From Limnomonas spitsbergensis (lineage: Eukaryota; Chlorophyta; Chlorophyceae; Chlamydomonadales), in contig JAYJMM010000011.1 of assembly GCA_037349105.1 (NCBI GenBank), forward strand, positions 186,001 through 250,000: DNA of 64,000 nt, written 5' to 3'. The translations under genes and the position numbers were made by a program. Positions 598 through 64,000 of this stretch are shown piece after piece; the stretch's first letter is position 1; each line of letters starts with the position of its first letter. Below the pieces are notes generated by a model. It ran no database searches. It was given only the letters and a program-made list of their open reading frames with translations, and was not told the origin of the DNA.

Positions 598-2385
598 CAG
601 TCATCCAGGTCGGTTGCTCCGATGAGAGGGAGCAGCAGCTCAACATGCTGGCGGCTGATGCCATCCTTGAAGGCCGCGACAATAGATGCGGCGGCCTGTT
701 GCGTCTGTTGCATGGCGCTGTCCGGCATTCGGATCTCTGGGACCAGTCTGAGAAGAGTGGGAAAAGAGTGGGAGAAGGGTGAGAGAAAGAATTCCGAGCA
801 TGCTATGGCCTTTGAATGCGGCGGCCTGTTGCGTCTATTGCATGGCGCTGTCCGGCATTCGGATCTCTGGGACCAGTCTGAGAAGAGTGGGAAAAGAGTG
901 GGAGAAGGGTGAGAGAAAGAATTCCGAGCATGCTATGGCCTTTGAATGCGGCGGCCTGTTGCGTCTATTGCATGGCGCTGTCCGGCATTCGGATCTCTGG
1001 GACCAGTCTGAGAAGAGTGGGAAAAGAGTGGGAGAAGGGTGAGAGGAAGAATTCCGAGCATGCTATGGCCTTTAAATGCGGCGGCCTGTTGCGTCTATTG
1101 CATGGCGCTGTCCGGCATTCGGATCTCTGGGACCAGTCTGAGAAGAGTGGGAAAAGAGTGGGAGAAGGGTGAGAGAAAGAATTCCGAGCATGCTATGGCC
1201 TTTAAATGCGGCGGCCTGTTGCGTCTATTGCATGGCGCTGTCCGGCATTCGGATCTCTGGGACCAGTCTGAGAAGAGTGGAAAATAGTGATACTGTGCAG
1301 AGCATGGCGATAGTTGCGGGCAGCCTGCTGGGTCTGTTGCAAAGCTTCGTCACTCAATCAAATCTCTGGGACCAGCCTGAGAAGTGGAAAGAGTAGACGA
1401 GTGAGAAACGCTCTTTCTAGTGTACTCTGGCGTAACACCCACACCCTTTTTTTCTTCCTCATAATAATCTCTGTCATGGGCCAGTGACACCATGCGGGTG
1501 AAGGGGGCCCCTCACCCCTCACCGCTCACTACCACCCTTACCCCGCCACCCCCCTCTCAGCTCACACCCCTCAAAACCCCCTCATAATACATCTCCGTCA
1601 TGAGCTAGTGACACCATGCGGGTGATGGGGGCCCTTCACCCCTCACTACCACTATATGGGCTTGCTGTTGCAACAGGCGTTTCGAGCGTACGTCAGATTC
1701 TGCGAAGTTTCTGATATGGACAGTCCTTGCTTGTATAATCTAGCATATTGGATTGGGGTCGTGGGAGCAAGCGTGGTTGAAATGTTTGTACTTTTGAATG
1801 GCCGGCATGCTTACCCCGTCACCCCTTTCTCAGTTCACACCCCTCACAACCCCCTCATATTCAGCCGGATTTATTACCAAGGATGGATACGGCACAGGTA
1901 CATCTGGATTTACTAAAGTAGCAGGATACGGCAGAAGTGAAGCCGAATTATGTTACCCACGTACAATGCGCATGAGTGATCACTGTCACCCCTGGCCTCT
2001 CTGCTACCATCAACCCCTGCATCCTACCTCTATAATTCGAGGATCCTATACATAGATCATGTGTGTATTTCATGGAAGGGAGTGTTGGCTGTCAGAGGCT
2101 TCGTGTTTACCTTGCGGGCTGTGGAGACGAGCCCACGACCGATGCCGCTCGGACCCGCATGGGCGAGGTGCTGGAGGCGTGTCTGCGTTGCGATGCCCAG
2201 CCATGCAGGGGCGAACATATTCTGCTGCTGCTGCTGGTTTCGGTGGGGGTGGCCAGGTCGCGGAGTCTGCTCCCTGTCGCTGCATAGATTGCGAGTGGCC
2301 CACGCGAGACGCGGGGCGAGCTCTTTGTGGCGAGCTTTGACGCGGAGCCTGCAGCGGCACGCGAGTTTGCGGTTGAGATCATCAT
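598..2385 (-). CDS. DUF1995-family plastid protein, 5' exons (partial, continues past left edge)
   Basis: Two exons are visible: exon 1 at 2385-2111 and exon 2 at 747-598. Exon 1 starts at tandem ATGs (2385, 2382) and encodes a Ser/Ala/Arg-rich, acid-poor leader (MMISTANSRAAAGSASKLAT...) like an algal chloroplast transit peptide. It ends at a strong donor (CGCAAG|GTAAAC) with two bases left over. Exon 2 follows CTTCTCAG and starts with the one base that completes Arg, so the phases agree. Exon 2 encodes AAFKDGISRQHVELLLPLIG followed by ATDLDDW, and ends at TG|GTGAGT. The run of a short helix, then R-x-x-VEL-LLP and then LDDW-type residues matches my knowledge of the DUF1995 proteins of plants and algae (LPA3-like, plastid). 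The biochemical role of this family is poorly defined. The rest of the domain lies left of position 1. The flanking introns contain junction copies, described separately. Family call moderately sure; exon chaining good. Confidence 0.62.
748..1400 (-). repeat. 130-bp acceptor-side junction array before DUF1995 exon 2
   Basis: Four near-identical 130-bp units and one degenerate unit (about 1290-1400) each contain the polypyrimidine tract, CTTCTCAG and the first ~60 bp of exon 2 (encoding LVPEIRMPDSAMQQTQQ...). After that the sequence diverges into intron. Only the innermost (lowest-coordinate) unit continues into the full exon. Each unit therefore presents a competing 3' splice site. Confidence 0.8.
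1401..2110. other. Rest of DUF1995 intron 1
   Basis: It contains repeated GGGGCCCYTCACCCCTCAC blocks (about 1500-1640). It also holds a ~148-bp copy (1656-1803) of sequence found again at 2507-2654, upstream of the start codon. I see no exon here. Confidence 0.5.
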
Positions 2386-3520
2386 GTCAGTCAGGCGGGG
2401 TAGAGATGCGGTGTAGATGAAGCTGGCTGGCACTCGTTGGCGTTGGTAGAGCTGGAAATAGGCGTTTCGAGTTTACGGCGGAGCCTGTCGAGGGGAAGCG
2501 GGAGAGCTTGCTGTTGAAACAGGCGTTTCGAGCGTACGTCAGAGTCTGCGGAGTTTCTGATATGTCCTTGCTTGTATAATCTAGCGTGTTGGATTGGCGT
2601 CGTGGGAGCAAGCGTGGTTGAAATGTTTGTACTTTTGAATGGCCGGGATGCTGGCGGGGGTTGGCAGCCACAAGGTAGATCTTGTGGCGCAGGTTTGCTG
2701 TCAAGTTTAACAGCGAGTGGCGGAGCGCAGTAGCTGAAAATATAGCGGAATGACGATGCCTCGATGATTTCAAATCAACATTGCTCATAATTGTCAGTCA
2801 TCATTCCAGTCTACCAATTTCAATGCTCACCCTTTGGAGGGATTGCGTGTGTGCGAGTGCCAAGGTAGTTGCATGGAAGAGGGACGAACAGAGAGATACG
2901 CCATCTTGTTTGTGACCGTTCATTTGGCTGGCACGGTCTGGCCCTTTCAAAAAGGCTTCAGGATGGACGTGGTAACGCCCTCGACACCAACAAATCCAGA
3001 TCCAACAAATCCAATGCTGGTTGGGCCTTGCCTTCGCAGCATTCTGAATGGGTTTTCGTGTGTGGATCTCTCATTGAGAAATGACACCTGTGCCATGGCC
3101 AGGTTTTTAAGGCCACAACCTCGTCTGCAAGCAGACGAGGTCCCCTCACCTAGCGGAGGATCACCGAAACCCGCACCCCCCCGATAAGATTCTCGCGCTG
3201 CTTGTGGTCTGCTTGGTCCATAAGACAACAATGGGCACTACTCAAAAGGCTTGGCCATGTGGGCGCCTAACACGATGCCGACGGGATCAAGGGCTGATAT
3301 CAGTGATATGATGCATGGAGTACCTCGGGAGACGTGGGTGGTAGTTTAGGCGAGCGACCAAATGGTAGCTTTAGCTGGTAAGATGGAATACCTGGGCCCC
3401 AACCAACAGGCATGCATAGCGTTGTTTTCATTTGATTGTGTACCTAACCAATGACACAAGATAGGGGCTGTTCCGGCAAAAAAAAACTCGTATTGTCCCA
3501 AGTGTCCCTGCACCAGACCA
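2386..3520. other. Intergenic region upstream of DUF1995 gene
   Basis: It includes the second copy of the ~148-bp repeat (2507-2654; partner 1656-1803), presumably in the promoter or 5' UTR of the minus-strand gene. It also holds a perfect hairpin at 3119-3140 (10-bp arms, AA loop) and a partial copy of the GGGCGCCTAAC dispersed family at about 3238-3270. I see no convincing gene. Confidence 0.45.
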
Positions 3521-3527
3521 CCTTCGA

Positions 3528-22800: not shown

Positions 22801-23214
22801 CCCACCCCTCTGCCTGTTGCCTGCCTGCACAGCATGTCTGAAGTGCGTACTCCCGCCTGCCTGCCCACTCAGCATTTCAACAATGCATCCTCCCACCTGC
22901 CCGCCCACCCTCCCGCCTGCCCGCCCCCCTGCCTGCCAGTTGCCTGCCTGCACAGAATGTCCGAAGTGCGTCCTCCTGCCTGCCCACCCACCCGTCCAGA
23001 TTCCTGCCCACCCGCCTGCCCACCTGTTCAGCTTCCCGCCAATCGCCTGCCTGCACAATCTCTGAAAAGTGCGCCCGCCCGCCCGTCTACCTGTCCACAC
23101 AGTATAACACAAATGCGTCCACCTCCCGCCTGCCCGCCCCCCCCCCCCGCCTTCCCGCATGCCTGTCCACACAGCATATCAAATGTGCGTCCTCCCGCCT
23201 GCCTGCCCACCCGT

Positions 23215-24815: not shown

Positions 24816-24844
24816 GCCTGCCTGCACAGTGTCTCAATAGTGCG

Positions 24845-26010: not shown

Positions 26011-26149
26011 CACCCGTTCAGCTTCCTGCCGGTTGCCTGCCTGCACAATATCTCAAGAGTGCGCCCGCCCACCCGTCTGCCCAACCGTCAAGACTCCTGC
26101 CCCCTGTCCGCCCCGTTACCCACTGTCCATCATGTTGAAAGCGCGTCCT

Positions 26150-36400: not shown

Positions 36401-39400
36401 CATGACATCTGCTGCATGCTGCTTGGCACATGGCGCATGACATCTGCTGCATGCTGCTTGACACATGGCGCATGACACCTGCTGCATGTTGCATGGCACA
36501 TGGCGCATGACACCTGCTGCATGCTGCTTGACACATGGCGCATGACACCTGCTGCATGTTGCATGGCACATGGCGCATGACACCTGCTGCATGCTGCATG
36601 GCACATGGCGCATGACACCTGCTGCATGCTGCTTGACACATGGCGCATGACACCTGCTGCATGTTGCATGGCACATGGCGCATGACATCTGCTGCATGCT
36701 GCATGGCACATGGCGCATGACATCTGCTGCATGCTGCATGGCACATGGCGCATGACACCTGCTGCATGATGCTTGACACATGGCGCATGACATCTGCTGC
36801 ATGCTGCTTGACACATGGCGCATGACACCTGCTGCATGTTGCATGGCACATGGCGCATGACACCTGCTGCATGCTGCTTGACACATGGCGCTTGACACCT
36901 GCTGCATGTTGCTTGACACATGGCGCATGACACCTGCTGCATGTTGCATGGCACATGGCGCATGACACCTGCTGCATGTTGCTTGACACATGGCGCATGA
37001 CATCTGCTGCATGCTGCTAGACACATGGCGCATGACACCTGCTGCATGCTGCATGGCACATGGCGCATGACATCTGCTGCATGCTGCATGGCACATGGCG
37101 CATGACACCTCCTGCATGTCGCATGGCACATGGCGCATGACATCTGCTGCATGCTGCTTGACACATGACGCATGACACCTGCTGCATGTTGCACGGCACA
37201 TGGCGCATGACACCTGCTGCATGCTGCATGGCACATGGTGCATGACACCTGCTGTACGCTGCTTGACACATGGTGCATGACACCTGCTGTATCGTGCTCT
37301 CCATGCTGATATTTTAGTAACCTCTATCTAGCGCAACCCTTAACCCTCAACCCTATAACCTTCTGTCCTTGCTCCCAATTCTTCACCCCTGAACTCCCTA
37401 ACCATACACCCTGAACCCCTCTGCCCTTGCTCTCAATGCTTCACCCCTGACCCCTTTACCCTGAACCCTGAACCCCTCTGCCCTTGCTCCCAATGCTTCA
37501 CCCCTGACTTATAAACCATAAACCCCCAACCCCTGTGTTCTTGCTCCTCATGCTTTGCCTTAGGTCACCCCTATCACCCCTGGCCCCTGAACCCCTTTAC
37601 CCTGAACCCTGAACCCCTCTACCCTTGCTCCCAATGCTTCACTGTAGGTCAACCCTATCAACCCCCACCCCTAAACCCTAAAACCTTAACTTATATGCAA
37701 AACCTATACCCCTCTGCCCTTGCTCCCAATCCTTCACCCCTGAGCAAACAACCCCTTAACCCTAAACCCCTCAGCCCTTACTCCCAATGATTCAAGGCAA
37801 GTCACCTCTGTCAACCCTCACCCTTGACCCCTGCTCTCTTAACCCTAAATCATAAATCATAAAGCATACTTCTACACCTTAAACCCTAAACCCCTCTGCC
37901 CTTGCTCCCAATGCCGTAGGTCACCCCTATCAAAGATCAAGGTCAATGCGGTGAGTGGCGGTTAGGGTCTTGGGTTAGAGTTAGGGATCAGGGTTCAGGG
38001 CATTTGAAAAAGGGGAAATATGACCCACGACTTGAACCAATCAAGGGGGGGGGGGGGGGGCGATACGGTGAGTGGCGGTTTGGGTATTTGGTTCTCAAGG
38101 GAGCGTGGGGGGTGGGGGCGATGTGGTTCCTGCTTCCCCTCCTCCTCCATGGCAGAGTCTTGCTGGGCGTTTGCAACGGCTGGCGAGCCCGAGTCATCCC
38201 ACTCTCCTATCTTGAAACTCCCAATGCGCGCCACACAAACTCTGAAACGCCTCCCCTGTCACACGATCTTGCAGAACATTCGCAGCGGCCGACATGCTGT
38301 AGCCCTCGTACCTCATCAACGTTCGCGGCACCTAAACAAAAAATCTGAACCCTAAACCCTCTATCCTTCGCATGGACAGGTTCCTGCTGGGCGTTCTCAG
38401 CAGCTGACATGCTGGAGTCCTCGTACCTCATCAACGTTTGCGGCACCTAACAAACTTTAAACCACTTATCCTCCATCATCACAGGATCTTGCTGGACGTT
38501 CTCAGCGGCGGACATGCTGAAGTCCTCGTACCTCATCAACGAGGGCAGTACCTCCCCCCCCCACACACACACAAACGAACTTGAAACCACCTATCCTTCT
38601 CGATCACAGGATCTTGCTGGGCGTTTGCAGCGACCAGCATGCTTGACTCTTCCTATGTCATCAATGTCGGCGGCACCACCAGCAAAAAATAGAACAAAAT
38701 CCTCTTAACCACCTTTCCTCCTCCATCACAGGATCTTGCTGGGCGTTTGCAGCGGCAAGTGTGCTCGAGTCCTCCCATCACCCTCCTACCTCATCAACGT
38801 GGCCGGCCCCTCCCCCCTCCCATATCCTGTTAACCCTAAACCACCTATCCATCACAGGTTCTTGCTGGGCGTTTGCAGCGGCAAGTGTGCTCGAGTCCTC
38901 CTACCTCATCAACGTTGGCGGTACCTCCACCACTGTCAGCCTATCGGAGCAGCAGATGATCCAATGTTGCAACACAGCGGGTGGAGGCAAGGGCTGGTCG
39001 GCTGGTTGTGATGGCGGGAATTCTGATGATGTGAGTGGTCCTTGGTGCACTGGGGGTCCAGGAGGGTGGGGGAGGGGGCCTGTAAGGAATTCGTTTCCAG
39101 TGGGCTGAGTGTCTTGATGTGACTTGTGTGACTATGTAGCTTCTGAAGTGGGAATACTTGTGTGAACAAGCAAGGCTTTTGGGTGGGTGTTCCTAGTTTC
39201 CGGGGCCTTCCTGGGGACAACAACCTCCAAACTTGTAAATTAAGATAAAAAGAGTAATTTAAACGAGAAGAGTGACTTGAGATATAAAGAGTACCTCTAG
39301 ATAGAAAACGCCCCGGCAGACCCTTTCAGGGCCAAGGGGTAACTTGTAATGCTCTGCAACATAGCGGGCAGATGCAAGGGCGGGTCAGCCGGATGTGATG

Positions 39401-42400
39401 GTGGGGATTCTCTGATTATGTGAATCTTTGTTTATATCTTTCTCTGTTTGGGAAGAAACGGGCATGGCATGGCATGGCATGGCGTCCGTTTTGTTTCAAG
39501 TCTTTTTTTCTCTCTTGACGTTTGTTATCTGGATTAAGAGGGGCAGTGGAGGTAATACGTTGAAATGAAATGCAGCGGGTGACGGCAACAGCTGTTCTGT
39601 TGGAAGTGGTTGTTGGGAGGGAGTTCAGTTTGTTTATGTTCTATATTGATTTGTTGTAGCTTTCTTAAAATGACCTCCCCGAAGCGCTGGGCCATGTTAA
39701 CAAGAACGGTCTTGCCTCATCTGGCTTTTATCCTTTCTGGCCCCTCCTTCCTCCTTCCAGCCGACCAACTCCCTCTTCGCTCAGCTCATCCCCCGTTTAA
39801 CCCTCGTATCGTATCATGTTCAGTGGTAACGGCGCGGATTTGGCTACGGCCCCAAGCTGCGTTGTTTCCTTAACCTCCACGCCCTAATAGGGCGTAGCTT
39901 TCTTTCTTTAAACCTCATTCTGTTTCACCTATGCCCCCTCAGGCTCTGGACTATGTCGCAAAGAAGGGTCTTGCCTCATCGGCCTTTTATCCTTACCCCG
40001 CGTCGGCATTTGACAATGGAGTCACAGGCTCTTGCATCAACAGCAAGGTACGACAGGGATCACGGATACGCAGCTTGGGGTTTGGGAACTAGGTTTGAAA
40101 GAGTGTGGATCCATCGGCCTTTCCCCCTACCCTGCGTCGGCACTTGACAATGGAGTCACATGCACTTGCATCAACAGCAAGGTGCGATATGGGTCAAGGA
40201 TAAGCAGGTTGGGGTTTGTGGTAGGAGGGTACAGTAGGAGGGTACAGGGTATATCATATAGGATTAGCAGGTTAGGGTTTAGTGTAGTGCAAGGGTGCAA
40301 GGGTATACGATTAAGGGTTTGCAGTTTGGGGTTTCGGAATTAGGTTTGAAATAGTGTGGACCCATCGACCTTTCCCCTGCTTTACGTTGACGGCAAACAA
40401 TGAAGGCATGGGCACTTACGTAGACAGCAAGGTAGGATAAGAGTCAAGGTTTGGTAGTTTCAGGTTTATGGTAGTAGGGTTAAGTGGGTGCCGTGTATGG
40501 TCTAGGGTTAAGGGAATAGCTTTGTAATAGGGTGGATCCAGGGTGGATCCAGGGTAGATCTTTTGGACTTTCCCCCCCTACTGTGTGATGACGGCAAACA
40601 ATAGAGTCACAAGCACTTGCATAAACAGCAACGTAAGACGGGGGTTTCAGTTGAGGGTCGAAGGCTTAGGGTTAAGTGGGCGCAGTGTATGGTCAAGGGT
40701 TCAGGTTCTAGCTATAAAACGTTCTTGCCTCATCGACCTTTTCTCTTTACACTGCTTCAACGATGACCATTGGAGTCGCAGGCGCTTGCATACAAACAGC
40801 AAGGTATGACGTATGTTTCAGTCGAGGGTTTAGGGTTTAGTGGGCGCAGTGTATGGTTTAGGTTAATTATAAGGGTATAGCTTTGTAATGGCCTGGATTT
40901 AAGTGCCTGTAGTGCCTGTATTTGATCAGATATAGTCCTCCCGTCATAAGGTACCTGCCCCGGCCGGACTGTGTATGACGTGCATGTAGTGCCTGTAGTG
41001 CCTGTAGTGCCTGTATTTAATATTTGTTTTAACAGATTCGTCCTCACCTAATGACCGTCCTTCCCCCAACAGGTGCCCGCCCCCGCTGGACAGGGTATCG
41101 CCATGACCGGCCTGTCACAGCTCGTCCCACCGGAAGACGAGGTCGCGCTGATGAATGTGAGTGTGAAATCCAGTGTTTTTGTTAGTGTGACCAGCTTGTG
41201 TGACCAGGTATATTAATACAGCGCGTCCGACCAGACGACGATGAACGTGAGTGTGCAATCCGGCGTTTTTTTAATGTGTGGCAGGTGTGACTAGATAGTG
41301 TGACAATGCCTTTCAAATCTCGTCCCATCTGAGGATGAGGGTGGGCTAAGGAAGGTGAGTGTGGAATCCAGTTTCCAAGAATGAAGGAATGGAAGTTACG
41401 TCCCGTGGGGGGCTTGAGTGTTCCAGAAACAGCGCAGCCTGGGCCGAAGCTGCGCCGTACGGCTCAGACTGCTTTAAGAACTTGACAGGACGGTCGGATG
41501 ATTTCCGTCCTGTCCAGTTCTTAAAGCATTCTGCCACAGCTTCATCAAACTGAAGACCTGAAGACCTGAAACCCTTAACCCTAAATGCTGAACCCTCCTT
41601 ACCCTCAGCCTTAAATCCTGCACAACTGAAATGCTTGACCTTAACCCTGAATCCCTTAACGCTATGCTCTCAACCCTTGACACCAAACCCAAGACTCTCC
41701 TTCTTGCGGCCTGTGACGTTTTGTTTTGACGTTCAGCGCATCCTCACAAACGATGGTACAGGCCTTGAACTCCAAACCCTTGACATGAGCACTTACCCCA
41801 TTAGCCTTAAACCCTGAATCCAAGATGCCAGACCCCGAACCTGTCATTTTCAATCTTTAACCCTAAACCCTCCCCTCTGTTGCCATGCAGGCTGTTTTTG
41901 TTCGGCCCGTGACGTTCTACTTCGATGCTCAGCGAAGCTTCATGAACTATGCGGGTGGTATCTACTCCGGCACCGATTGCGGGACTAGCACCACCAACCA
42001 CGCAAGTGAGTGGACTAGAATAAACCTCTTAACCGTTTTGTTATATTTTCAAGTTGGCTTCAAATTCAAATTCATGGCCACTAGAGGGGGGGAGGGGGGC
42101 AGAGGCAAACAACATGTCGTTTTAATTATAAATGGAATGAAACAGACAGGTAGTAGGGTAGTTGGAACTGCGCCGGTACCGACTGTGGGACTACCACCAC
42201 CAACCACGCAAGAGTAGAAGAATGAATCCTTTTTTTCTTGTTGTCAAAGCACTGGTAACAGCACCGGCTGCGGCTGCGGCAACCGGTGGCATGTAACCTC
42301 CAAATATCTGGCGCCGGCACCGGCTGCGGGAAAACTATCCATGCCAAAGGGCGGACTAAAAATCTGATTAACCTCGGGCGCTGCGCTTGAACTGAAACAA

Positions 42401-45400
42401 TCTATCATTTTGTCCCGGAAAGTCCTTGCCACCTTTTTACGGTATATTACATAATTATTTCTTGGTGCAAATGTTTAATAATATTAAATAACAGTTCTCC
42501 CGTTTATCTGCCTGCTCCCCTTGCAGTGGTGATTTTGGTCTATTCAATTCCGGGCGCTGTGGTTTTTAACAACTCATAATTTAGTAGTAATTACAATACC
42601 CCCTTCCTGCCCCCCTTTCAGTGGTGAGTGTGGGCTATTCAACTCTGGGCGCTTTTTATATTAAAATAAGTAATAATGAATAATAATAACTCCCCTGCCC
42701 TTGCTGCCTGACCTTCTTTCAGTGCTGATTGTGGGCTATTAAATTCCGGGTGATTTACTATACATGACTAATAATTAATAATAAATAACTTCCTGTCCTT
42801 GCTGCCTGCCCCCCTTTCAGTGGTGATCGTGGGCTATTCAACTTCGGGTGCCGACAAGTACTGGATCATCCGCAACAGCTGTGAGTAAACAAAATGATGA
42901 TTTAATCCACTTTAATTTTTAATAAATTTAATAAATCATCCCGCGAAAACTTACCATTCAGTTCGTCTGCAGATTTGATTTGCCTTCCCTCAGGCATCCA
43001 ACAAAACATGATTTATCTTAATGCCACCCTCAGAGTAAAATGTCAAAAACGACTTTTAATTTCCGACTGAAAGCCAGCGTCGAAATTTGATCATAAGTCA
43101 ATTCATGCCTCAACCCCAAACAACGATAATTATGAGGGGGGGCGAAGCAAATCTATGGTACCTATTAAAGCGGATATTATGTTCTCGCTTTCCGTAGGGG
43201 GCACCAACTGGGGAGAGCAGGGCTACGCACGCATCAAGATGGTCGGCGGCGGGACTGGACAAGGAGTCAAGGGCATGTGTGATATGTATGAGGTGAAAGA
43301 CAATTCCTTGAAAACAAAAGAAGTTTTTTATTACTTACGGTATACATTCAAATTATATTTAAACAAATTAATTATCTTAGTTCAATTAATGAATCAAGTG
43401 CCAAGATGGTCGGCGGCGGGACTGGACAAGGAGTCAAGGGCATGTGTGATATGTATGAGGTAAAAGACAATTCGTTGAAAATGAAAGAAGTGTTTTCATT
43501 ACTTATGGTATAAATTCAAATTATATTAAAGCAAATTAATTATCTTAGTACAATTAATGAATCAAGTGCCAAGATGGTCGGCGGCGGGACTGGACAAGGA
43601 GTCAAGGGCATGTGTCACATGTATGAGGTAAAAGACCTTTTCCTTGACATTAAGCCTGAATTTTAATTATTTATAAGTCAATTATTAATTTAGTTCAGTA
43701 AACAAATCACGTGCCAAGATAATTGTTGGATGTGTTTGACCGATGCTTTGGCAGAAAAGGTTGGCGACAAAAAGCCATTCCTCCGTGCATGTTGTAAATA
43801 ATTGCAGGAGTCATGTTTTATATATGAACATAAAAGCAATCATCATTTATCAATGTCCAAAGGAAAGCCATTATAATCTACGGGGAAATTCGGGTCACCT
43901 GCTTGTTCTCAGTTTATTTGTAATAAAGTAAATAAATAAATAAATAAATAAAGGATACTCCCTGAGGCGTGAATTAAGGAAGCCACCCGTTTGGCCGTAG
44001 CACTAGGTGAGCTACTGTAATAATGTATGTATATTTTATTTATGCCTCGCAGGTCTGCTACCAGCCCTCCGCCATCTTAGTTTATATTTATCTTTAATGA
44101 ATTATGAATTTATTTATTCATTTATGCCCCGCAGGTCGGTATTTAATAATCTATGAATGTTTTATTTATGTTTCGCAGGCCTGCTATCAGCCCTCCGCCA
44201 TCTTTACCAAGACGCTTGGTGGTGCAGTGGGTGAGCAGCCCCCCTAGATACCCTAAACCCTTAACCCCCAACCATAAACCCTTGACCCTCCACCCTTCAC
44301 CGTTCACCCTTGGCCCTTGACCCTTGACCCTTTGAACCTTGACCCATTGAACTGTGAACCTTGGACCTTGACCCTCCAACCCTTCAACCCTCCAACCCTT
44401 CAACCCTTCAACCCTTTAACCGTTGACCCTTCAACCCTTGACCCTTCAACCCTTGACCCTTCAACCCTTGACCCTTCAACCCTTCAACCCTTCAACCCTT
44501 TAACCGTTGACCCTTCAACCCTTGACCCTTCAATCCTTGACCCTTCAACCCTTGACCCTTCAACCCTTGACCCTTCAACCCTTGACCCTTCAACCCTTGA
44601 CCCTTCAACCCTTCAACCCTTTAACCGTTGACCCTTCAACCCTTCAACCCTTCAACCCTTTAACCGTTGACCCTTCAACCCTTGACCCTTCAACCCTTGA
44701 CCCCTTAAATTCTTGAACCCTTGAACCCTTAAAGCCTTAACGCCTGATGGGCCCTCTCTTTCCCACCAAGGTTCAGAGCCCCCCCCCCCCCCTCTTTCCC
44801 ACCAAGGTTCAGAGCCCCCCCCCCCCTCTTTCCCACCAAGGTTCAGAGCCCCCACCCCACCCACACGCCTGCGCAACCTACCATCAATTATCATTCAACA
44901 CGACCCTAAAACCTGAACCCTATTCCCTAAACCCTGGACCCCCTTGTTTGCCACTGCATTTAAGAGCCCTACCACATCCACACGCCTGCGCAATTTACCT
45001 TTAATTGTCATTTAACTCAACCCGAACCCTTAACCCTTAACCCTACACCCTAAACCCCCTTCTTTGCCACTGCAGTAAAGAGCCCTACCCCGGCCATCAG
45101 TCCTACTCCGGCCATCAGTCCTTCTCCCACACCAAGCCCGAACCCAGCCAAGAGCCCCTCCCCAACGCCCAGCCCATCGCCAGCCAAGAGCCCCAGCCCA
45201 AACAAGAGCCCTTCTCCTACACCAAGCCCGAGCCCAGCCAAGAGCCCTAGCCCGAACAAGAGCCCTTCTCCAACACCAAGCCCGAGCCCAGCCAAGAGCC
45301 CTTCTCCAACGCCCAGCCCATCGCCAGCCAAGAGCCCGTCCCCATCAAAGAGTCCTTCACCCTCGAAAAGCCCTTCCCCCAGCAAGATCCCAACTTCCAA

Positions 45401-48400
45401 CGAAAGTCCCTCACCCGCCCCGTCCCCCTCCGACTACTCACCCCCAGCCACTGATAACAACATGCCCCCGCCCGACTCTGTGAACTTCCCGCCGGGATTC
45501 TTCGATTTCTCGCCGCCGCCCACCAACGGCGGCGACTATTCTCCGCCCCCCCATGCCGGAGGCGATAACTCCCCTCCGGCGAGCGACCATTCCTCGCCCC
45601 CGCAAGGTATTCCTTCCCCCCCCGAGCATTCTCCTCCACCCTCCGGCGGCTCCGCACCGCCACCGACCTCCTCCCCTCTGTCTCGTCGCAAGAGGCGCTC
45701 GGCTGTCGCGATCGGGACCCAGGCGGTGGCACGGGGCGTGGTTGCGGCGGTGGTGGCGGCGGCGGACGCCTCGGCTTGTGATTGCGACTTCCCCTTTGCG
45801 TACAACGGGAAGATGTACAACGAGTGCACGGACATTGACGCTACGGTAATTGCAGGGGTAGGGATTTAGGGTTTGGGGTGAAGGCTTTGTGTACAAGAAG
45901 ACGCACAATGTGTACAAGAAGACGCACAATGAGTACAAAGAGAAGACGCACAATGAGTACAAGAAGACGCACAATGAGTACAAGAAGACGCACAATGAGT
46001 ACAAAGAGACGCACAATGAGTACAAAGAGAAGACGCACAATGAGTACAAAGAGAAGACGCACAATGAGTACAAGAAGACGCACAATGAGTACAAGAAGAC
46101 GCACAATGAGTACAAAGAGAAGACGCACAATGTGTACAAAGAGAAGACGCACAATGAGTACAAAAAGACGCACAATGTGTACAAGAAGACGCACAATGTG
46201 TACAAAGAGAAGACGCACAATGTGTACAAAGAGAAGACGCACAATGAGTACAAAAAGACGCACAATGTGTACGAGAAGACGCACAATGAGTACAAGAAGA
46301 CGCACAATGTGTACAAGAAGACGCACAATGTGTACAAAGAGAAGACGCACAATGAGTACAAGAAGACGCACAATGAGTACAAGAAGACGCACAATGAGTA
46401 CAAGAAGACGCACAATGAGTACAAAGAGAAGACGCACAATGAGTACAAAGAGAAGACGCACAATGAGTACAAAGAGAAGACGCACAATGAGTACAAAGAG
46501 AAGACGCACAATGAGTACAAGAAGACGCACAATGAGTACAAGAAGACGCACAATGAGTACAAAGAGAAGACGCACAATGAGTACAAGAAGACGCACAATG
46601 AGTACAAAGAGAAGACGCACAATGAGTACAAGAAGACGCACAATGAGTACAAGAAGACGCACAATGAGTACAAAGAGACGCACAATGAGTACAAAGAGAA
46701 GACGCACAATGAGTACAAGAAGACGCACAATGAGTACAAAGGGAAGACGCACAATGTGTACAAGAAGACGCACAATGAGTACAAGAAGACGCACAATGAG
46801 TACAAAGAGAGGACGCACAATGAGTACAAGAAGACGCACAATGAGTACAAGAAGACGCACAATGAGTACAAAGAGAAGACGCACAATGAGTACAAGAAGA
46901 CGCACAATGAGTACAAGAAGACGCACAATGTGTACTAGAAGACGCACAATGTGTACTAGAAGACGCACAATGTGTACTAGAAGACGCACAATGAGTACAA
47001 GAAGACGCACAATGTGTACAAAGAGAAGACGCACAATGAGTACAAAGAGAAGACGCACAATGAGTACAAAGAGAAGACGCACAATGAGTACAAGAAGACG
47101 CACAATGAGTACAAGAAGACGCACAATGAGTACAAAGAGAAGACGCACAATGAGTACAAGAAGACGCACAATGAGTACAAAGAGAAGACGCACAATGAGT
47201 ACAAGAAGACGCACAATGAGTACAAAGAGAAGACGCACAATGTGTACACGAAGACGCACAATGTGTACGAGAAGACGCACAATGAGTACTAGAAGACGCA
47301 CAATGTGTACAAGAAGACGCACAATGTGTACAAAGAGAAGACGCACAATGTGTACAAAGAGAAGACGCACAATGAGTACAAGAAGACGCACAATGTGTAC
47401 AAAGAGAAGACGCACAATGTGTACAAAGAGAAGACGCACAATGAGTACAAGAAGACGCACAATGAGTACAAAGAGAAGACGCACAATGTGTACAAAGAGA
47501 AGACGCACAATGAGTACAAAGAGAAGACGCACAATGAGTACAAGAAGACGCACAATGAGTACAAGAAGACGCACAATGAGTACAAGAAGACGCACAATGA
47601 GTACAAGAAGACGCACAATGAGTACAAGAAGACGCACAATGTGTACAAAGAGAAGACGCACAATGAGTACAAGAAGACGCACAATGAGTACAAAGAGAAG
47701 ACGCACAATGAGTACAAAGAGAAGACGCACAATGAGTACAAAGAGAAGACGCACAATGAGTACAAAGAGAAGACGCACAATGAGTACAAGAAGACGCACA
47801 ATGAGTACAAGAAGACGCACAATGAGTGCAAAGAGAAGACGCACAATGAGTACAAGAAGACGCACAATGAGTACAAAGAGAAGACGCACAATGAGTACAA
47901 GAAGACGCACAATGAGTACAAAGAGAAGACGCACAATGAGTACAAGAAGACGCACAATGAGTACAAAGAGAAGACGCACAATGAGTACAAGAAGACGCAC
48001 AATGAGTACAAGAAGACGCACAATGAGTACAAAGAGACGCACAATGAGTACAAAGAGAAGACGCACAATGAGTACAAGAAGACGCACAATGAGTACAAAG
48101 AGAAGACGCACAATGAGTACAAGAAGACGCACAATGAGTACAAAGAGAAGACGCACAATAAGTACACAGATGCTGAAGCAAGGGTAATTATACTAAACCC
48201 TAACAGGCTGAAGACTGTTTATCACCATCATTCATCCACTGCCCCTGCAGCCTACAGGGGATATGGTGGAGCCTTATGTCTGATGCTGGCAGGCAGTAAT
48301 GGGCAGATTTACGGTTGCAAGCGTCGGCAACCGTTTTTTAACGGTTGCAAGCGTCGGCAACTGCTTTTTACGGTTGCTCTGTCATTATTTTGTTATTAAT

Positions 48401-49087
48401 TACTTGCTGACTGAAATGAAATTTCCCTTGCTGACTGAAACCTGAAGCCCTAAACCCTTGACCCTTCACCCCTGCGGCTTGCAGGCGAGGTGGTGTCTCG
48501 TGTCTGAGGCTTGCAATGCCTTCTATGGAAGTACGCAACCTTGCACCTTTTACCCATAACCCTAAACCCCTGTGGCTTGCAGGCGAGGTGGTGTCTCATG
48601 TCTGAGGCTTGCAATGCCTTCTATGGAAGTACGCAACCTTGCACCTTTTACCCTTGACCCTTCACCCCTGCGGCTTGCAGGCGAGGTGGTGTCTCGTGTC
48701 TGAGGCTTGCAATGCCCTCTATGGAAGTACGCAACCTTGCACCTTTTACCCATAACCCTTCACCCCTGTGGCTTGCAGGCGAGGTGGTGTCTCGCGTCTG
48801 AGGCTTGCAATGCCTTCTATGGAAGTACGCAACCTTGCACCTTTTACCCATAACCCTAAACCCCTGTGGCTTGCAGGCGAGGTGGTGTCTCGCGTCTGAG
48901 GCTTGCAATGCCTTCTATGGAAGTGCGCAACCTCGACCTTTTACCCTAAACCCTTCACTCCTGCGGCTTGCAGGCGAGGTGGTGTCTCGTGTCTGAGACG
49001 TGCAAGGCCTTCGACGGAACGCTTGTTAATGCTGACAACGCAAAGCTCAACAGGCGCTTCGTTTACTGCGCCGATGAGCGCCTGTAA
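27422..49087 (+). CDS. Secreted papain-family (C1A) cysteine protease with SPSPK linker and FN2-like C-terminus
   Basis: Exons: 27422-27496, 30476-30592, 32298-32396, 33269-33348, 33836-34031, 37920-37950, 38858-39030, 39943-40047, 41073-41156, 41891-42005, 42821-42880, 43198-43292, 44179-44230, 45076-45845, 48974-49087; total 2166 nt, 721 residues. All phases agree. Order of domains: signal peptide (MVLLLAGAALCTLSAQ, residues ~10-25); I29-like propeptide (LFYSWADYFG); mature start near NWVTDGKVTPIKDQGQ; catalytic CGSCWAFA, with the oxyanion Gln in KDQG; SEQQMIQCCN and GCDGG; AFYPYP; His in TNHAMVIVGY; Asn in IIRNSWGTNWGEQGY. Next comes a ~90-residue SPSPTPSP/SPSPAK linker (probable hydroxyproline O-glycosylation), an SPPP-rich stretch and a dibasic SRRKRR. 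The last module, CDFPFAYNGKMYNECT plus ARWC and FVYC, matches the FN2 cysteine/aromatic spacing. The stop context CTGTAAG also resembles a donor, so a further exon is possible. Expected role: extracellular or vacuolar proteolysis. Confidence 0.87.
27497..30300 (+). repeat. Intron 1 array: ~37 copies of signal-peptide exon end plus donor
   Basis: Units of 70 bp plus n x 7 bp. Each repeats the last ~48 bp of exon 1 (ATGGTGTTGCTGCTGGCCGG ... AGTGCTCAG) and the donor GTTACAAAGGG, then one to four GCATAGG/GCATAGT heptamers. Length differences come from heptamer number. Every unit keeps an ATG in the same context and a CAG|GTTACA donor. Two haplotypes, TGTACTCTCAGTG and TGTACGATCAGTG, alternate along the array. 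Confidence 0.95.
30398..30768 (+). repeat. Junction copies on both sides of protease exon 2
   Basis: A truncated acceptor-side copy (30398-30432; GCCCAAGACGAAATTGTCTTT) precedes exon 2. A degenerate donor-side copy (about 30690-30768; GAGACGATCACCAAGAGAGT then CTGTCGGATGTGAC) follows it. Confidence 0.7.
31082..31690. repeat. 14-bp array with fold-back hairpin (intron 2)
   Basis: About 33 units of CCTCCAACCACCTA (31082-31545) lead into a perfect 31-bp inverted repeat (31547-31577 / 31588-31618, 10-bp loop). After it the same 14-bp unit continues in reverse orientation (31619-31690). The hairpin's right arm plus loop is an inverted copy of the downstream acceptor region (CCCCCAGTCTAAGCAAGATG on the minus strand). 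Confidence 0.9.
31765..32297 (+). repeat. 130-bp acceptor-side array before protease exon 3
   Basis: Four units (copies of the exon start at about 31777, 31908, 32038 and 32168). Each has CTTCTTCTCCTCAG followed by ACTGAGCAAGATAATGTGAC, ending GGGCGGATTACTT, then intron sequence CCCTCCCCAACCAATC. Only the fifth, at 32298, runs on into the full exon. Confidence 0.9.
32603..32690 (+). repeat. Donor-side copy of protease exon 3
   Basis: A diverged copy of the exon's last ~75 bp with donor GCG|GTGAGG. It would read LFYSWADYFGLIQFGNDTSQ in place of the LFYSWADYFGHTQFGNYTVQ of the real exon. It lies just 3' of a family B element (32440-32605). Confidence 0.8.
32877..33268 (+). repeat. 118-bp acceptor-side array before protease exon 4
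   Basis: Three units, each with a C tract, TTGCCTCACAG and then ACGACTGAGGCCCAAGCCAA, ending ...CAGGCAATATTAATGTG. The true exon at 33269 differs (ACAACTGAGGCC...AACTTTGTT) and is the only one that continues to a donor. Confidence 0.9.
33349..33835 (+). repeat. Protease intron 4: CCTAGATCC repeats and one acceptor-side copy
   Basis: 33380-33630 is made of GATCCCGCCYAGATCCCACC-like units. At about 33674-33780 a copy of the exon 5 acceptor and first ~75 bp (TGCAACCAGTACTACCATCT) precedes the real acceptor. Confidence 0.8.
34050..37290. repeat. 35-bp minisatellite (intron 5, ~90 units)
   Basis: Unit GCATGCTGCTTGACACATGG plus CGCATGACACCTGCT, with variants ATGTTGCATGG, CATCTGCTG and GCTTGGC. 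Long Cys/His/Met-rich frames on the minus strand result from the array (35 is not a multiple of 3, so all frames look alike) and are not genes. Confidence 0.95.
37310..37919 (+). repeat. Acceptor-side copies before protease exon 6 with telomere-like words
   Basis: Six or seven degenerate units contain CCCTTGCTCCCAATGCTTCA and, in the better copies (about 37565 and 37647), TAGGTCACCCCTATCA or TAGGTCAACCCTATCA. This matches the true acceptor CCGTAG|GTCACCCCTATCAAA at 37920. Between them are ACCCTAAACCC and ACCCTGAACCC words. Confidence 0.8.
38140..38857 (+). repeat. ~115-bp acceptor-side array of the active-site-Cys exon
   Basis: Six pseudo-copies (exon starts at about 38152, 38262, 38381, 38484, 38607 and 38730) of the acceptor plus TCTTGCTGGGCGTTTGCAGC and the next ~50 bp. 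Many still encode SCWAFA...LESSYLIN, while others are changed (for example SCWTFSAADML). Only the last copy (38858) extends to QQMIQCCN and a donor. Confidence 0.92.
39340..39740 (+). repeat. Intron 7 junction copies (donor side, then acceptor side)
   Basis: Donor-side copies of exon 7's end lie at about 39345-39425 (CTGCAACATAGCGGGCAGATG) and 39565-39625. An acceptor-side copy of exon 8's start is at about 39680-39740 (GGTCTTGCCTCATCTGGCTT). Confidence 0.7.
40095..40810 (+). repeat. Donor-side copies of protease exon 8
   Basis: Four degenerate copies of the exon's end, each closing with AACAGCAAG or similar and then GT (about 40100-40171, 40380-40431, 40570-40631 and 40722-40801). They are interspersed with GTTTRGGGTTTAGT-like intron sequence. 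They decay with distance from the real donor at 40048. Confidence 0.82.
41215..41770 (+). repeat. Intron 9 junction copies
   Basis: Two donor-side copies of exon 9's end (about 41218-41260 and 41318-41365, both ending in GTGAGTGTG) lie at the 5' part. One acceptor-side copy of exon 10's start (about 41697-41750; CGGCCTGTGACGTTTTGTTT) lies at the 3' part. A separate dispersed repeat at about 41395-41470 (CGTGGGGGGCTTGAGTGTT) also occurs at 56365-56425. Confidence 0.75.
42160..42820 (+). repeat. Intron 10 junction copies around the catalytic-His exon boundary
   Basis: One donor-side copy (about 42170-42215; ACCACCACCAACCACGCAAG) is followed by three acceptor-side copies at about 42527, 42622 and 42722, each TTGCAG or TTTCAG then TGGTGATTNTGG...CTATTCAA. 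The true exon starts at 42821. Confidence 0.82.
43293..44178 (+). repeat. Intron 12 junction copies
   Basis: Two donor-side copies (about 43400-43460 and 43568-43628) are almost identical to the last ~60 bp of exon 12, with GAG|GTAAAAG donors as good as the real one (GAG|GTGAAAG). They are followed by A+T-rich sequence. Acceptor-side copies of exon 13 lie at about 44050 (CGCAGGTCTGCTACCAGCCC) and 44134. Confidence 0.85.
44270..44735. repeat. 15-bp array (CTTGACCCTTCAACC), intron 13
   Basis: Units of CCCTTGACCCTTCAA with CCTTTAACCGTTGA variants. Copies of the next acceptor region follow at 44758-44850 (CTTTCCCACCAAGGTTCAGAGCCC, three times) and at about 44945 (TTTGCCACTGCATTTAAGAG). The true acceptor is at 45076. 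Confidence 0.9.
45884..48190 (+). repeat. 21/24-bp array (intron 14), amplified exon-14 end
   Basis: About 105 units of AAGACGCACAATGAGTACAA(AGAG). The unit resembles the exon's own end (AAGATGTACAACGAGTGCAC). The array closes at 48160-48190 with AGTACACAGATGCTGAAGC then AAGGGTAATTA, a recognisable copy of the exon end (AGTGCACGGACATTGACGC, then TACG|GTAATTG). Unit lengths are multiples of 3, so both strands stay open; these frames are not counted as genes. Confidence 0.93.
48470..48973 (+). repeat. ~110-bp acceptor-side array before protease exon 15
   Basis: Five pseudo-copies of GGCTTGCAG and then GCGAGGTGGTGTCTCGYGTC, ending GCAATGCCTTCTATGGAAG, followed by CCTTTTACCCNTAACCC. The true exon at 48974 alone continues to VYCADERL and the stop. 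Confidence 0.9.
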
Positions 49088-56335: not shown

Positions 56336-59300
56336 GGGGAGGGTAGCGGGCACAAAAAAAAAAGCTTTGCCTCGTGGGGGGCGTGAGTGTTGAGGAAACA
56401 GCGCCCGCCTGGGCCGAAGCAACATCCGCGCCGTTACCGCGAGAGTAAGGACACATCACAATTGATTTCGGCGGCTTGCGGTTCTGATTTTTTTTCTCAC
56501 CGGTTTTAGCACGTCCAGTGGGATCCAGGATCCCCCCTCCAAGAAATATGGTTTCTTGTTTATTTATCTATTTTTGTCCGATTTCCATGCCACTAGGTAC
56601 CGGGCTGTCGTTGCTGGCTCCGTGAATCATGGAAGTTTTTAGTGGGGAGGGGGCTTAATGGGCAAAAGGGCCGAGCACCGTTTTTTGTTTTAGTGCGTGG
56701 TATACTATACCTTAAATCGACAGGCCTGGCTCAATGCACAGGAATGGTACACAATGCGTCACAGCGGCCTGTCTAACTTGCAATGCTCCTGACCTGGTCC
56801 CACACCCTCCATCCCCTGACAGGCTGGCTCAATACAGGGCAACGCATAAAAAAACAAGGGGATTTGGAATTTCGTTGCGCAACAAAACATGTCATGCTAA
56901 ACACGGCCTCGTGAAACGTGTGGCTTTTTGGCCCCCGAAACGTCAGCAGTCGTCAGCACCCGAAACTTATGGCAAACTGTCGACACGAATCTCTTATTTT
57001 TTCATTTTACCGGAAGGTAACGTCGACAATCAATACCGGTAATCAGGAAATTCATGGATCCCTCAGCCGCAAACAGCGCAAATCTTGAGGAGGGCACAGC
57101 AAAACCCAGGTACCGGTCGCTAATTTATATGTTGTGATACATTTAATAATTTCAAAGCATAAATTGGGATAAAGCATAAATTGGGATAAAGCATAAATTG
57201 GGATAAAGCATAAATTGGGATAAAGCATAAATTGGGATAAAGCATAAATTGGGATAAAGCATAAATTGGGATAAAGCATAAATTGGGATAAAGCATAAAT
57301 TGGGATAAAGCATAAATTGGGATAAAGCATAAATTGGGATAAAGCATAAATTGGGATAAAGCATAAATTCCTTGTTCGAATTCGAATCACCTTGTCGGCC
57401 ACCCTGTATGCACACTTTCCACACTGTTAATCCTTTTCTGGACTTCGCCAGTAGCTGACACATTATGTACATTCACATGATGCTAAATGTATGAATCCCA
57501 CACACCGGTACAGTAAATCCCACACTTTTCATTCACCTTGTCGACCAACTCCATGTACTCCTTCCGCTTGTCAATTCTTTTCTGGACGTCGCTGACAGGT
57601 TTTTTCATGCCATTGCCGGCTGTCTCAAAGGAACGGTCCACAGCCAGCCGCTCGCCAGCATCTGACGAGGAACCTGAAGGAACAAAAAACAAAATCAAGG
57701 CAGATTAAAACACAAAAAGATATAATGGAATTCCATGAAGGGGGCAACCCCCCTCATTATTTTGCAACGCCGCCGGCGGCCTAGAAGGAAAGGTCCACAG
57801 CCAGCCGCTCGCCGGCATCTGACGAGGAACCTGAAGGAAAGACAAACAAATGAAAGGCATTTAAAAACATAAAAAAACAAAGAAAACAGTAATCAAAACC
57901 AGGAATGCCATCATTTTGCAACGCTGCCGGCGGCCTGGATGGAACAGTTCACAGCCAGCCGCACGCCAGCATCTGACGATGAACCTGAATGCGAGATAAG
58001 CAAAGGAAAACCATTTCCAACAAAACAACATTTACAACAGTGTTTAAATCAGGAAGAAGCGGTCCGCAGCCAGCCGCTCGATAGCCTCTGACAATAAACC
58101 TGAGGGAAAGATGAAAACATAAAGTAATTTCCAACAATAATAAACAGTTAGGAATACCAGGAAGGAGCGATCTATAGCCAGCCGCTCGCCAGCATCCGAT
58201 GAACCTGAAGCAAAAATATGTAAATAAACGTAACTCCTCAAGTACAAATCATTAACAAATACAAGAAGAGTGATCTCCATGACCCCCCCCCCCACTTTTT
58301 TCGCCATGCAAACTAACTAAGGCTACGGTTCTAAAAGAAACTAGGTTCTAAAAGAAACCTAAAAGAGTGGGCCCCCCGCCACTGCCCCTAAAATATATTT
58401 GGCGGCTTCGAAGGAACGGACCACAGCCAGCCGCTTGCAGCAGCATCTGACGAGGAACCTAGATGAAAGATACATAAAATAAACAACCTCTTATGGAGCA
58501 GTACAAAGCATTAGCACATTTAAGAAGAGGGATTTTCCTGGCTCCCCCCTCATTATACTCCATGTAAACAAACTTAGGCTGCAGTTCTACTACAGAACCA
58601 GGAGTGCGCCCCGCTGCTGCCCCAAGAATAATTTTGAGGGCGGGTTTTAGGTCCCAAGCAATCAACTGTGGGTCCCAGACGTGCGGCCTCCGGGATCCAC
58701 AGCCAGCCGCCACTGTTTTTTTAGTGAGTCATATACCGTTATCAGCTACAGTTCAGCTACACTGTCGACCCCAGCCACAAGCCTCTGGTGCGGCCAGCCC
58801 TGCTGCTTGGGCCACTGGCAGGAGGCCGGTCCAGGTTTGGTGGGAATCGGCCCAGGGGTCAGTAGCTAGCCCAGGCCTAGCAAAAGTGGTCCAGTCCCCA
58901 CTAGAATAAACATTTCTGGCCGCTTGCGGGCCCTAACGAGTAACCTGCCAGACACTAAATAAAGAAATAAACGGCAGAACAAAATATTTACACGGCCTCT
59001 GAAGGGCGCCACGTCCCTACTCCTTCAATCAAAATAATTTCAAACGTTGCGGCCGTGACAACGGTATCTGGAGTCCAAGCACTTCAACCACGTCTTTATT
59101 CTGCATGGAAATCAATGAAATTGGAAATAAGAAAAACAATAATAGCAGCTACCCGCATCCGCAGGAACAGTGAGGGCAGTTCCCACTGTCCCACTTCCAT
59201 GGCCACGTCTTTATGCAAATCAAAAACAATTTACAGGTGACTCGATACAAATCAGGTGTATCATTGAAATTGGAGATAATAAAATCAATAACAATTACTA

Positions 59301-61277: not shown

Positions 61278-61394
61278 CTGCGCATTGCAGGGTGTAGTAT
61301 ATTAAATATATTAATAATAATATATTAATAATATACCGTATATTATTATTATTATTATTATTATTATATTACTCGAGTTTTACAAGATACAAAC

Positions 61395-62508: not shown

Positions 62509-62514
62509 ACCTCC

Positions 62515-64000
62515 CTGAACCCAGCCTTTCCCCCCTCAACCCCGTACCCCCCCCAAGCTTCCAACCTCATGGGATCGCTGATTTGCAGCATTTCCCCCCT
62601 GAACCCGCAATTTCACCCTTGACCTCCCTGCACCCAGCATTTCCCCCCTGAACCCCGTACCCCCCCCAAGTTTCCAACCTCATGGGATCGCTGATTTGCA
62701 GCATTTCCCCCCTGAACCCGCAATTTCACCCTTGACCTCCCTGCACCCAGCATTCCCCTCCTCAACCCGGTACCCCCCACAAGTTTCCAACCTCATGGGA
62801 TCGCTGATTTGCAGCATTTCCCCCCTGAACCCGCAATTTCACCCTTGACCTCCCTGCACCCAGCATTCCCCCCCTCAACCCCGTACCCCCCCCAAGTTTC
62901 CAACCTCATGGGATCGCTGATTTGCAGCATTTCCCCCCTGAACCCGCAATTTCACCCTTGACCTCCCTGCACCCAGCATTCCCCCCTCAACCCCGTACCC
63001 CCCCCAAGCTTCCAACCTCATGGGATCGCTGATTTGCAGCATTTCCCCCCTGAACCCGCAATTTCACCCTTGACCTCCCTGCACCCAGCATTTCCCCCCT
63101 GAACCCCGTACCCCCCCCAAGTTTCCAACCTCATGGGATCGCTGATTTGCAGCATTTCCCCCCTGAACCCGCAATTTCACCCTTGACCTCCCTGCACCCA
63201 GCATTCCCCTCCTCAACCCGGTACCCCCCCCAAGTTTCCAACCTCATGGGATCGCTGATTTGCAGCATTTCCCCCCTGAACCCGCAATTTCACCCTTGAC
63301 CTCCCTGCACCCAGCATTCCCCCCCTCAACCCCGTACCCCCCCCAAGTTTCCAACCTCATGGGATCGCTGATTTGCAGCATTTCCCCCCTGAACCCGCAA
63401 TTTCACCCTTGACCTCCCTGCACCCAGCATTTCCCTCCTCAACCCGGTATTCCCCCCAAGCTCAAACCTCATGGGATCGCTGATTTGCAGCATTTCCCCC
63501 CTGAACCCGCAATTTCCCCCTTGACCTCCCTGAACCCAGCATTCCCCCCCTGAACCCGGTACCCCCCCCCAAGCTTCTAACCTCATGGGATCGCTGATTT
63601 GCAGCATTTCCCCCCTGAACCCGCAATTTCACCCTTGACCTCCCTGCACCCAGCATTTCCCCCCTCAACCCCGTACCCCCCCCAAGTTTCCAACCTGATG
63701 GGATCGCTGATTTGCAGCATTTCCCCCCTGAACCCGCAATTTCCCCCTTGACCTCCCTGCACCCAGCATTCCCCCCTCAACCCCGTACCCCCCCCAAGTT
63801 TCTAACCTCATGGGATCGCTGATTTGCAGCATTTCCCCCCTGAACCCGCAATTTCCCCCTTGACCTCCCTGAACCCAGCATTCCCCCCCTGAACCCCGTA
63901 CCCCCCCCTAGCTTCCAACCTGATGGGAATGCTGATTTGCAGCATTCCCCCCCTCAACCCCATACCCCCCCCAAGCTTCCAACCTGATGGGATCGCTGAT
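62515..64000 (-). repeat. ~117-bp array, each unit a candidate mini-exon end
   Basis: About 12 units, running off the right edge. On the minus strand each has GCGGGTTCAG, then GGGGGAAATGCTGCAAATCA, then GCGATCCCATSAG and GTTGGA or GTTAGA. The segment MLQISDP(M/I)R ends two bases into an Arg codon, which fits the phase of the next exon at 61277. The array is probably amplified donor-side junction of the preceding exon. Confidence 0.88.

Follow-up and report, generated by a model that had tools for sequence, protein, structure and literature searches.

Tandem duplication over exon–intron boundaries has been described in several settings. Human genes within segmental duplications hold internal tandem repeats at exon–intron boundaries (De Grassi and Ciccarelli 2009, PMC2812944), and in a potato RdRp gene a tandem duplication extends over an intron–exon boundary (Ma et al. 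2016, PMC4974935). Tandem genomic duplication has also been proposed as a model of intron gain (review PMC3443670; Drosophila cases PMC2891723), and in rad27-deleted yeast flap-processing defects lead to short duplications between direct repeats, insertions by which ABA becomes ABABA (PMC5677150). Here we analysed 64,000 nucleotides (nt) of the green alga Limnomonas spitsbergensis (GCA_037349105.1, contig JAYJMM010000011.1, positions 186,001 to 250,000 of the forward strand; hereafter the window), in which introns of a C1A cysteine protease gene and of other genes carry copies of the ends of their own exons. We consider it likely that these copies arose by short tandem duplication that is blind to exon borders, with the outermost splice sites being used and the introns lengthening.

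The protease gene was assigned to the papain family (C1A) by PF00112 matches in three frames (51.2, 26.1 and 19.0 bits), the first two of which exceed the cut-off of 20.7 and the third of which lies below it; at the C terminus, an fn2 match of 21.1 bits falls slightly below its cut-off of 22.2. Taking the outermost junctions gives a spliced frame that is open over 2091 nt, as the original prediction had held, but the 721 codons it had counted were not recovered, the model, which lacks the 5′ end, having 696 sense codons. The gene is laid out as follows.

30476..49087, plus strand: C1A cysteine protease gene with a C-terminal FN2-like domain, 14 exons, 5′ end not found
30476-30592, 32298-32396, 33269-33348, 33836-34031, 37920-37950, plus strand: C1A exons 1-5
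38858-39030, 39943-40047, 41073-41156, 41891-42005, 42821-42880, plus strand: C1A exons 6-10
43198-43292, 44179-44230, 45076-45845, 48974-49087, plus strand: C1A exons 11-14

The last two exons (45076-45845 and 48974-49087) encode a long Pro/Ser-rich linker followed by the FN2-like C terminus. A candidate 14-nt exon at 48170-48183 was rejected, because its inclusion broke the frame of the last exon, whereas exon 13 without it reads in frame into the FN2-like last exon.

Copies of the upstream exon end with its GT, of AG with the downstream exon start, or of both were detected in most introns of this gene. At a strict threshold (p<0.001), upstream-exon-end copies were present in 7 and downstream-exon-start copies in 9 of the 13 introns, and 10 of 13 carried either kind; under a looser test, in which the best score had to exceed the highest of 40 dinucleotide shuffles, the count rose to 11 of 13, introns 10 and 12 being the two without copies. 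The copies and arrays are listed below.

30698..30766, plus strand: donor-side copy, end of C1A exon 1 with GT, 74% over 69 nt
31720..32297, plus strand: acceptor-side array in intron 1, AG with exon 2 start, 130-base-pair (bp) unit, 4.8 copies, 96%
32623..32682, plus strand: donor-side copy in intron 2, end of exon 2, score 36 against a shuffle maximum of 15
32887..33268, plus strand: acceptor-side array in intron 2, unit of about 115 bp (117 bp, 3.5 copies), 93%
33708..33760, plus strand: acceptor-side copy in intron 3, start of exon 4, score 45 against a shuffle maximum of 14
38140..38857, plus strand: acceptor-side array in intron 5, six copies of AG with exon 6 start (SCWAFAA)
39355..39423, plus strand: donor-side copy in intron 6, end of exon 6, 81% over 69 nt
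39677..39735, plus strand: acceptor-side copy in intron 6, start of exon 7, 78% over 59 nt
40099..40810, plus strand: donor-side copies in intron 7, end of exon 7 (40099-40218, 83%; 40598-40643, 85%; 40718-40810, 77%)
41308..41372, plus strand: donor-side copy in intron 8, end of exon 8, 78% over 65 nt
42161..42244, plus strand: donor-side copy in intron 9, end of exon 9, 75% over 88 nt
42508..42820, plus strand: acceptor-side copies in intron 9, start of exon 10, 95-98-bp unit, 75% over 252 nt
43402..43720, plus strand: donor-side copies in intron 11, end of exon 11, 167-bp unit (168 bp, 2.4 copies, 94%)
48439..48973, plus strand: acceptor-side array before the last exon, 98-bp unit, 5.8 copies, 92%

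Besides these, the 21-bp array in intron 13 (45891-48166) shows similarity to the end of exon 13 (self-match starting at 45797) and may represent a former junction copy. From a C1A paralogue, L072 (C37:1083500-1091500), only two exons were obtained; intron 7 of the gene in the window (40048-41072) is seemingly absent there, the aligned second exon being continuous across its position.

Two further exons in the window, both on the minus strand, are flanked by copies. One belongs to a gene designated DUF1995, for which the PF09353 match is weak (17.3 bits, under the cut-off of 26) and for which a DUF717 match of 22 bits on the same stretch likewise lies under its cut-off; it carries copies of both kinds. 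The other belongs to a membrane-protein gene, whose exon gave no match in a Pfam search.

598..747, minus strand: DUF1995 exon, real copy, acceptor side at 747 and donor side at 598, open frame LVPEIRMPDSAMQQTQQAAASIVAAFKDGISRQHVELLLPLIGATDLDD between AG and GT
816..1382, minus strand: acceptor-side copies of the DUF1995 exon start, with exon starts at 877, 1007, 1137, 1267 and ~1382
93..509, minus strand: donor-side copies, DUF1995 exon end with gtgag, with exon ends at 435, 273 and 93
57528..57673, minus strand: membrane-protein gene exon (GSSSDAGERLAVDRSFETAGNGMKKPV...), open frame preceded by AG, donor not located
57772..58455, minus strand: acceptor-side copies of the membrane-protein exon start, with exon starts at 57830, 57984, 58099, 58204 and near 58455 (58399-58455)
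57387..57448, minus strand: copy of the 3′ part of membrane-protein exon 57528-57673, past the 3′ side of the exon, 77% over 62 nt

The DUF1995 acceptor-side array has a 130-bp unit in 4.7 copies, four of them 97-99% identical to the exon and a fifth, older one (1310-1382) at 77%, and the donor-side copies reach 82% (435), 77.5% (273) and 92% (93) over 78-80 nt. At the membrane-protein exon, the acceptor-side copies are 85-89% identical over 39-60 nt and all five retain AG. Four genes had originally been put forward as carriers: the C1A, DUF1995 and membrane-protein genes (the last on the acceptor side) bore this out, and the minus-strand gene at 16-18 kilobases (kb) could not be confirmed; a 36-bp repeat is present in its region, at 16355-16424, and a Pfam search of this gene gave no match.

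To place the window in the context of the genome (260.2 Mb in 124 contigs), we compiled 19 conserved chaperone genes with 172 introns, 16 of the genes forming eight pairs. Genes were found with the PF00118 and PF00012 profiles and modelled with a spliced protein-to-genome aligner, using as references E. coli GroEL and DnaK and chains of chaperonin subunits with solved structures. The eight HSP70 loci were picked partly for compactness, and long genes are therefore under-represented. The fetched loci L039, L040, L042, L043 and L054 are not part of the modelled set. Introns 2 and 3 of L044 and L045, where the reference is missing, were left out of the 172, and poorly fitting exons of three genes (the first of L051, the last of L065 and of L069) were omitted as well. 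In L070, the end of one exon was shifted by 12 nt to match its ohnologue; an exon of L064 modelled with a GC donor, 9 nt shorter than in its partner L065, and an intron placed differently in the L066 and L067 models were kept as they were.

Direct repeats lying in a single intron and holding adjacent exon sequence together with the splice site were found in this sample as well. Of 170 introns, 11 had an upstream-exon-end copy, and 19 of 170 had a downstream-exon-start copy (two introns per side dropped out because the flanking exon was too short); 27 of 172 introns carried either kind, so that the trait extends beyond the window. Reverse-complement controls gave 0/170 and 0/170 and controls with far exon ends 0/93 and 0/96; in an earlier set of 152 introns, the far-end reverse-complement control was passed in 1 of 73. 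Repeat events in the sampled regions numbered 128, compared with 1 after base shuffling. The frequency depended on intron length: copies were found in none of 26 introns shorter than 150 nt and then, in successively longer classes, in 3 of 63, 10 of 48, 12 of 27 and 2 of 8 (>1000 nt), or in 3 of 89 introns below 300 nt compared with 14 of 35 of at least 600 nt. Junction copies are thus strongest in long introns, with C1A as the extreme case. The claim that introns carry boundary-crossing tandem duplications was upheld, and the wider one, that nearly every intron of the genome is affected, fits C1A only.

The arrangement of the copies within introns was uniform. In the 152-intron set, all 18 significant upstream-exon-end copies lay at a relative position of 0.50 or less and all 20 significant downstream-exon-start copies at 0.49 or more, so that, as had been stated, the two classes were never mixed in order. 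All 38 had the orientation of the exon and were placed towards the junction whose sequence they repeat, and reverse-complement controls gave 0/340 in the sample. Tandem duplication across a junction yields exactly this order, which accounts for it. The same arrangement bears on a model in which introns are born from tandem duplication of exonic AGGT segments (the Rogers model), so that the repeats would mark their origin. Intron gain by tandem duplication is on record (PMC3443670), but this model predicts the start of the downstream exon at the 5′ end of the intron and the end of the upstream exon at the 3′ end, and among 185 introns that arrangement scored above the highest null score in only 1 and 1, the copies occupying the opposite halves; we regard such an origin as very improbable. 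An equally faint prospect is that the introns belong to a family of introner elements or other mobile introns. Introners are present in some green algae (PMC7789003), yet only five intron pairs from unrelated genes among the 185 introns shared at least 50 nt, and these partially, and the repeats include exon sequence of the gene itself.

Copies tended to decay with distance from the junction. At 20 junctions with at least two copies, the nearest copy was more similar to the exon than the farthest at 15 and less similar at 5; in C1A intron 5 identity fell from 0.99 in the nearest copy to 0.73-0.79 in the farthest, and the DUF1995 donor side, where the farthest copy is the 92% one, ran against the trend. 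Decay with distance, which the original prediction had given as general, is a tendency and not a rule.

The sampled genes also allowed the age of the copies to be judged. Eight locus pairs on different contigs (L048/L049, L050/L051, L052/L053, L064/L065, L066/L067, L068/L069, L070/L071 and L044/L045) are closely related, which we take as signs of genome duplication or of two diverged subgenomes. Their exon lengths are mostly equal and their intron lengths different (median ratio 1.46 over 67 matched introns), and three pairs aligned as DNA showed matches of 71-92% identity interrupted by unalignable stretches. For 34 copies the ohnologous exon served as a reference: 6 seemingly postdate the gene duplication, 20 share one or more sites with the other exon and 8 are undecided. 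Copies were found in both members of 6 of the 67 ohnologous intron pairs and in one member of 11, the copy-bearing intron being the longer in 8 of the 11. These data, together with the divergence of the exon parts of copies from the exon (identities of 0.82 and 0.85, that is, about 15-18% different on average), speak against an assembly artefact from collapsed or falsely duplicated reads; tandem arrays can be misjudged in long-read assemblies, but an artefact would hardly account for diverged copies shared by ohnologues, and we give it next to no weight.

We next asked whether duplication is aimed at exon–intron borders, as had been suggested. Repeats were recounted by an ungapped scan over all offsets from 8 to 400 nt, which gave 39 crossing and 89 internal events in the sample. 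With the comparison restricted to offsets of 40-400 nt, the 172 introns held 38 crossing and 52 internal events in 32.4 and 49.3 kb of available DNA, respectively, a crossing/internal rate ratio per available position of 1.11 (95% interval 0.71-1.73, p 0.67), so that the rate of duplication in the sample is not higher at junctions than inside introns. Coverage by repeats after masking of exons did not rise towards the junction: in introns of 300-1200 nt it was 0.115, 0.146, 0.147, 0.132 and 0.140 on moving away from it, in the whole sample it was lowest at the junction and rose from 0.059 to 0.225, and an exon-masked blastn profile of the sample agreed. Repeats of this kind are also held by window stretches without a gene model (9 in 17.55 kb).

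An initial blastn count of 29 crossing and 9 internal repeats, an approximately four-fold border bias, was discarded, and so was a minimum repeat unit of ~84 nt suggested by the blastn offsets, because blastn self-comparison misses hits near the main diagonal, even in arrays with 14-21-bp units. This limit is shared by the unit lengths of 87-223 nt, by a coverage profile of 65 introns and by the exon-masked blastn profile. For units of that length, a junction is crossed by 87% of the frame-sparing duplication positions in introns below 200 nt, by 60% in those of 200-400 nt and by 33% in those of 400-800 nt. In the 65-intron blastn profile, donor-side repeat coverage extends over the junction into the exon and is gone by ~100 nt, and acceptor-side coverage is 0.03 by 100 nt into the exon and then higher again where few exons reach.

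Several results weigh against duplication that is blind to borders. At present intron lengths, crossing repeats are in excess in introns of at least 600 nt (22 crossing and 30 internal, ratio 2.78, 1.53-4.98) and in C1A (21 and 27, ratio 4.72, 2.54-8.68), C1A having been picked for its crossing repeats and being extreme by choice. A border-blind process would therefore require that these introns had been no longer than ~300 nt at the time of duplication. The exon-masked blastn profile of C1A stood at 0.41-0.49 within 200 nt of junctions, compared with 0.27 deeper, a rise that the offset-complete C1A profile does not show. Repeats of at least 0.85 identity gave a sample ratio of 1.62 (0.77-3.37), with which a mild bias is compatible. 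Offsets below 40 nt account for 37 of 89 internal but 1 of 39 crossing events, being common inside introns; the stretches without gene models hold somewhat fewer events (the 9 in 17.55 kb) than introns do internally (52 in 69.3 kb); and three of the 11 ohnologue pairs with one-sided copies have them in the shorter intron.

Such an excess would be expected if duplication were provoked at exon–intron boundaries themselves, R-loops, nucleosome edges and strand-switch repair being conceivable triggers. The 4.7-fold and 2.8-fold values for C1A and the long introns and the first blastn count favour this explanation. Against it, the blastn count is distorted by the near-diagonal misses and, probably, by slower decay of the exon halves of repeats; the offset-complete count and the masked coverage of the sample show no rise at junctions; and C1A was a gene chosen for such repeats. 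Moreover, with the length of the introns limited to 300 nt at the time of duplication, crossing events would be expected to make up a share of 0.54 in both sets, above the observed 0.42 and 0.44, so that growth from short introns would suffice for the excess. The border bias in the original prediction thus did not hold in the sample, for all the excess in C1A and the long introns, and we consider a border-targeted process unlikely.

Under border-blind duplication, the copies would arise as follows. Short tandem duplications would occur genome-wide irrespective of splice sites, and existing repeat units would expand further once homologous units are present. Duplications within exons would alter the protein and presumably be removed in most cases. 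A duplication over one junction would place a second exon end with its GT, or a second exon start with its AG, inside the intron, and would be tolerated while the intron grows, because the messenger RNA (mRNA) is unchanged if the outermost donor and acceptor are used. Growing introns would capture exon ends because, in short introns, most of the duplications that can be tolerated must straddle a junction; the captured ends would then persist as decaying relics. Exon definition is established knowledge, and use of the outermost sites would probably proceed through it. The long introns would have grown from shorter ones, and slippage, template switching and flap joining are candidate mutational causes.

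The remaining points against this scheme concern the inner copies. The outermost sites are predicted, from frames, stops and homology, to be the ones in use, and a different reading holds that the inner copies are functional, either as alternative exons or as decoy or recursive splice sites under selection. In its favour, 75 of 89 copies retain their splice dinucleotides, compared with ~65 expected from copy identity (copies within arrays not being independent), and changes on the copy lineage are uneven by codon position (82/517, 60/531 and 97/415, or 0.159, 0.113 and 0.234), with more at the third. However, a frameshift or an in-frame stop is present in 17 of the 65 copies adjacent to junctions in C1A and the sample, and the four near DUF1995 acceptor-side copies have an in-frame TAG in place of the CAG of the exon, so that these recent copies are not a working exon in that frame. 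Seemingly young copies, with changes of 8/80, 4/85 and 9/65, lack a significant codon-position pattern (third versus first plus second position, p 0.13), and old copies together with later third-position change in the exon account for part of the unevenness. On balance, we think it improbable that the inner copies are functional in this sense. There is a slim chance, slightly better than that, that some exon-end copies are still recognised by the spliceosome, leading to stepwise removal or regulated isoforms, with selection keeping the duplicated GT or AG; if so, the genome would contain a large set of naturally duplicated splice sites in competition, graded in distance and age.

Two other repeat classes were noted in the window. 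An interspersed element with the core GTCAATGACGTTACACCTCTGGGCC has 11 matches with at most 3 mismatches (none expected), at 5294, 6676, 6985, 7220, 7735, 50775, 52620, 53914, 54014, 54561 and 54861, all in stretches without a modelled gene. Long minisatellite arrays, many with units of ~9-113 bp, fill much of the window (12485-15971, 21205-30283, 34377-37289, 45891-48166 and 60016-63960).

Border-blind duplication with outermost splicing would provide a simple route of intron growth, in which an intron takes in pieces of its own exons and the change is hidden by splicing. Duplicate splice sites whose distance and divergence from the site in use are known could serve to test the choice of the outermost pair (exon definition) and the survival of decoy sites. 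For annotation, intronic copies of exons are mistakable for exons or for mutually exclusive exons, and blastn self-comparison can create a false border bias. In searches of one open-access library we saw no genome-scale report of introns with junction copies, subscription papers lying mostly outside this coverage.

Among described systems, avian GC-rich genes with repeat-filled introns (PMC6792250) and the introners of Amoebophrya (PMC7789003) were considered as precedents and differ from the introns described here. Introner elements likewise change introns on a large scale in algae and protists (PMC9860276, PMC7789003), but the 185 introns here showed no shared intron family. The insertions of rad27-deleted yeast illustrate a route to short tandem duplications, which for this genome is only a candidate mutational cause. 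As in the tandem-duplication model of intron gain, duplication and splicing together would leave the mRNA unchanged, but the repeat arrangement predicted by that model is the reverse of the one found here. In the potato RdRp gene, as here, the duplicated segment spans one intron–exon boundary and splice signals are reused; that case is a single event creating a new intron, whereas repeated events would have lengthened introns in L. spitsbergensis. Closest is the human case, in which repeat units span exon–intron boundaries and copies can be spliced out. There, 27 intron modifications in recently duplicated primate genes were ascribed to minisatellite expansion, whereas the copies described here are mostly low-copy units of mixed ages, present in about one sixth of the sampled introns of conserved genes and associated with greater intron length.

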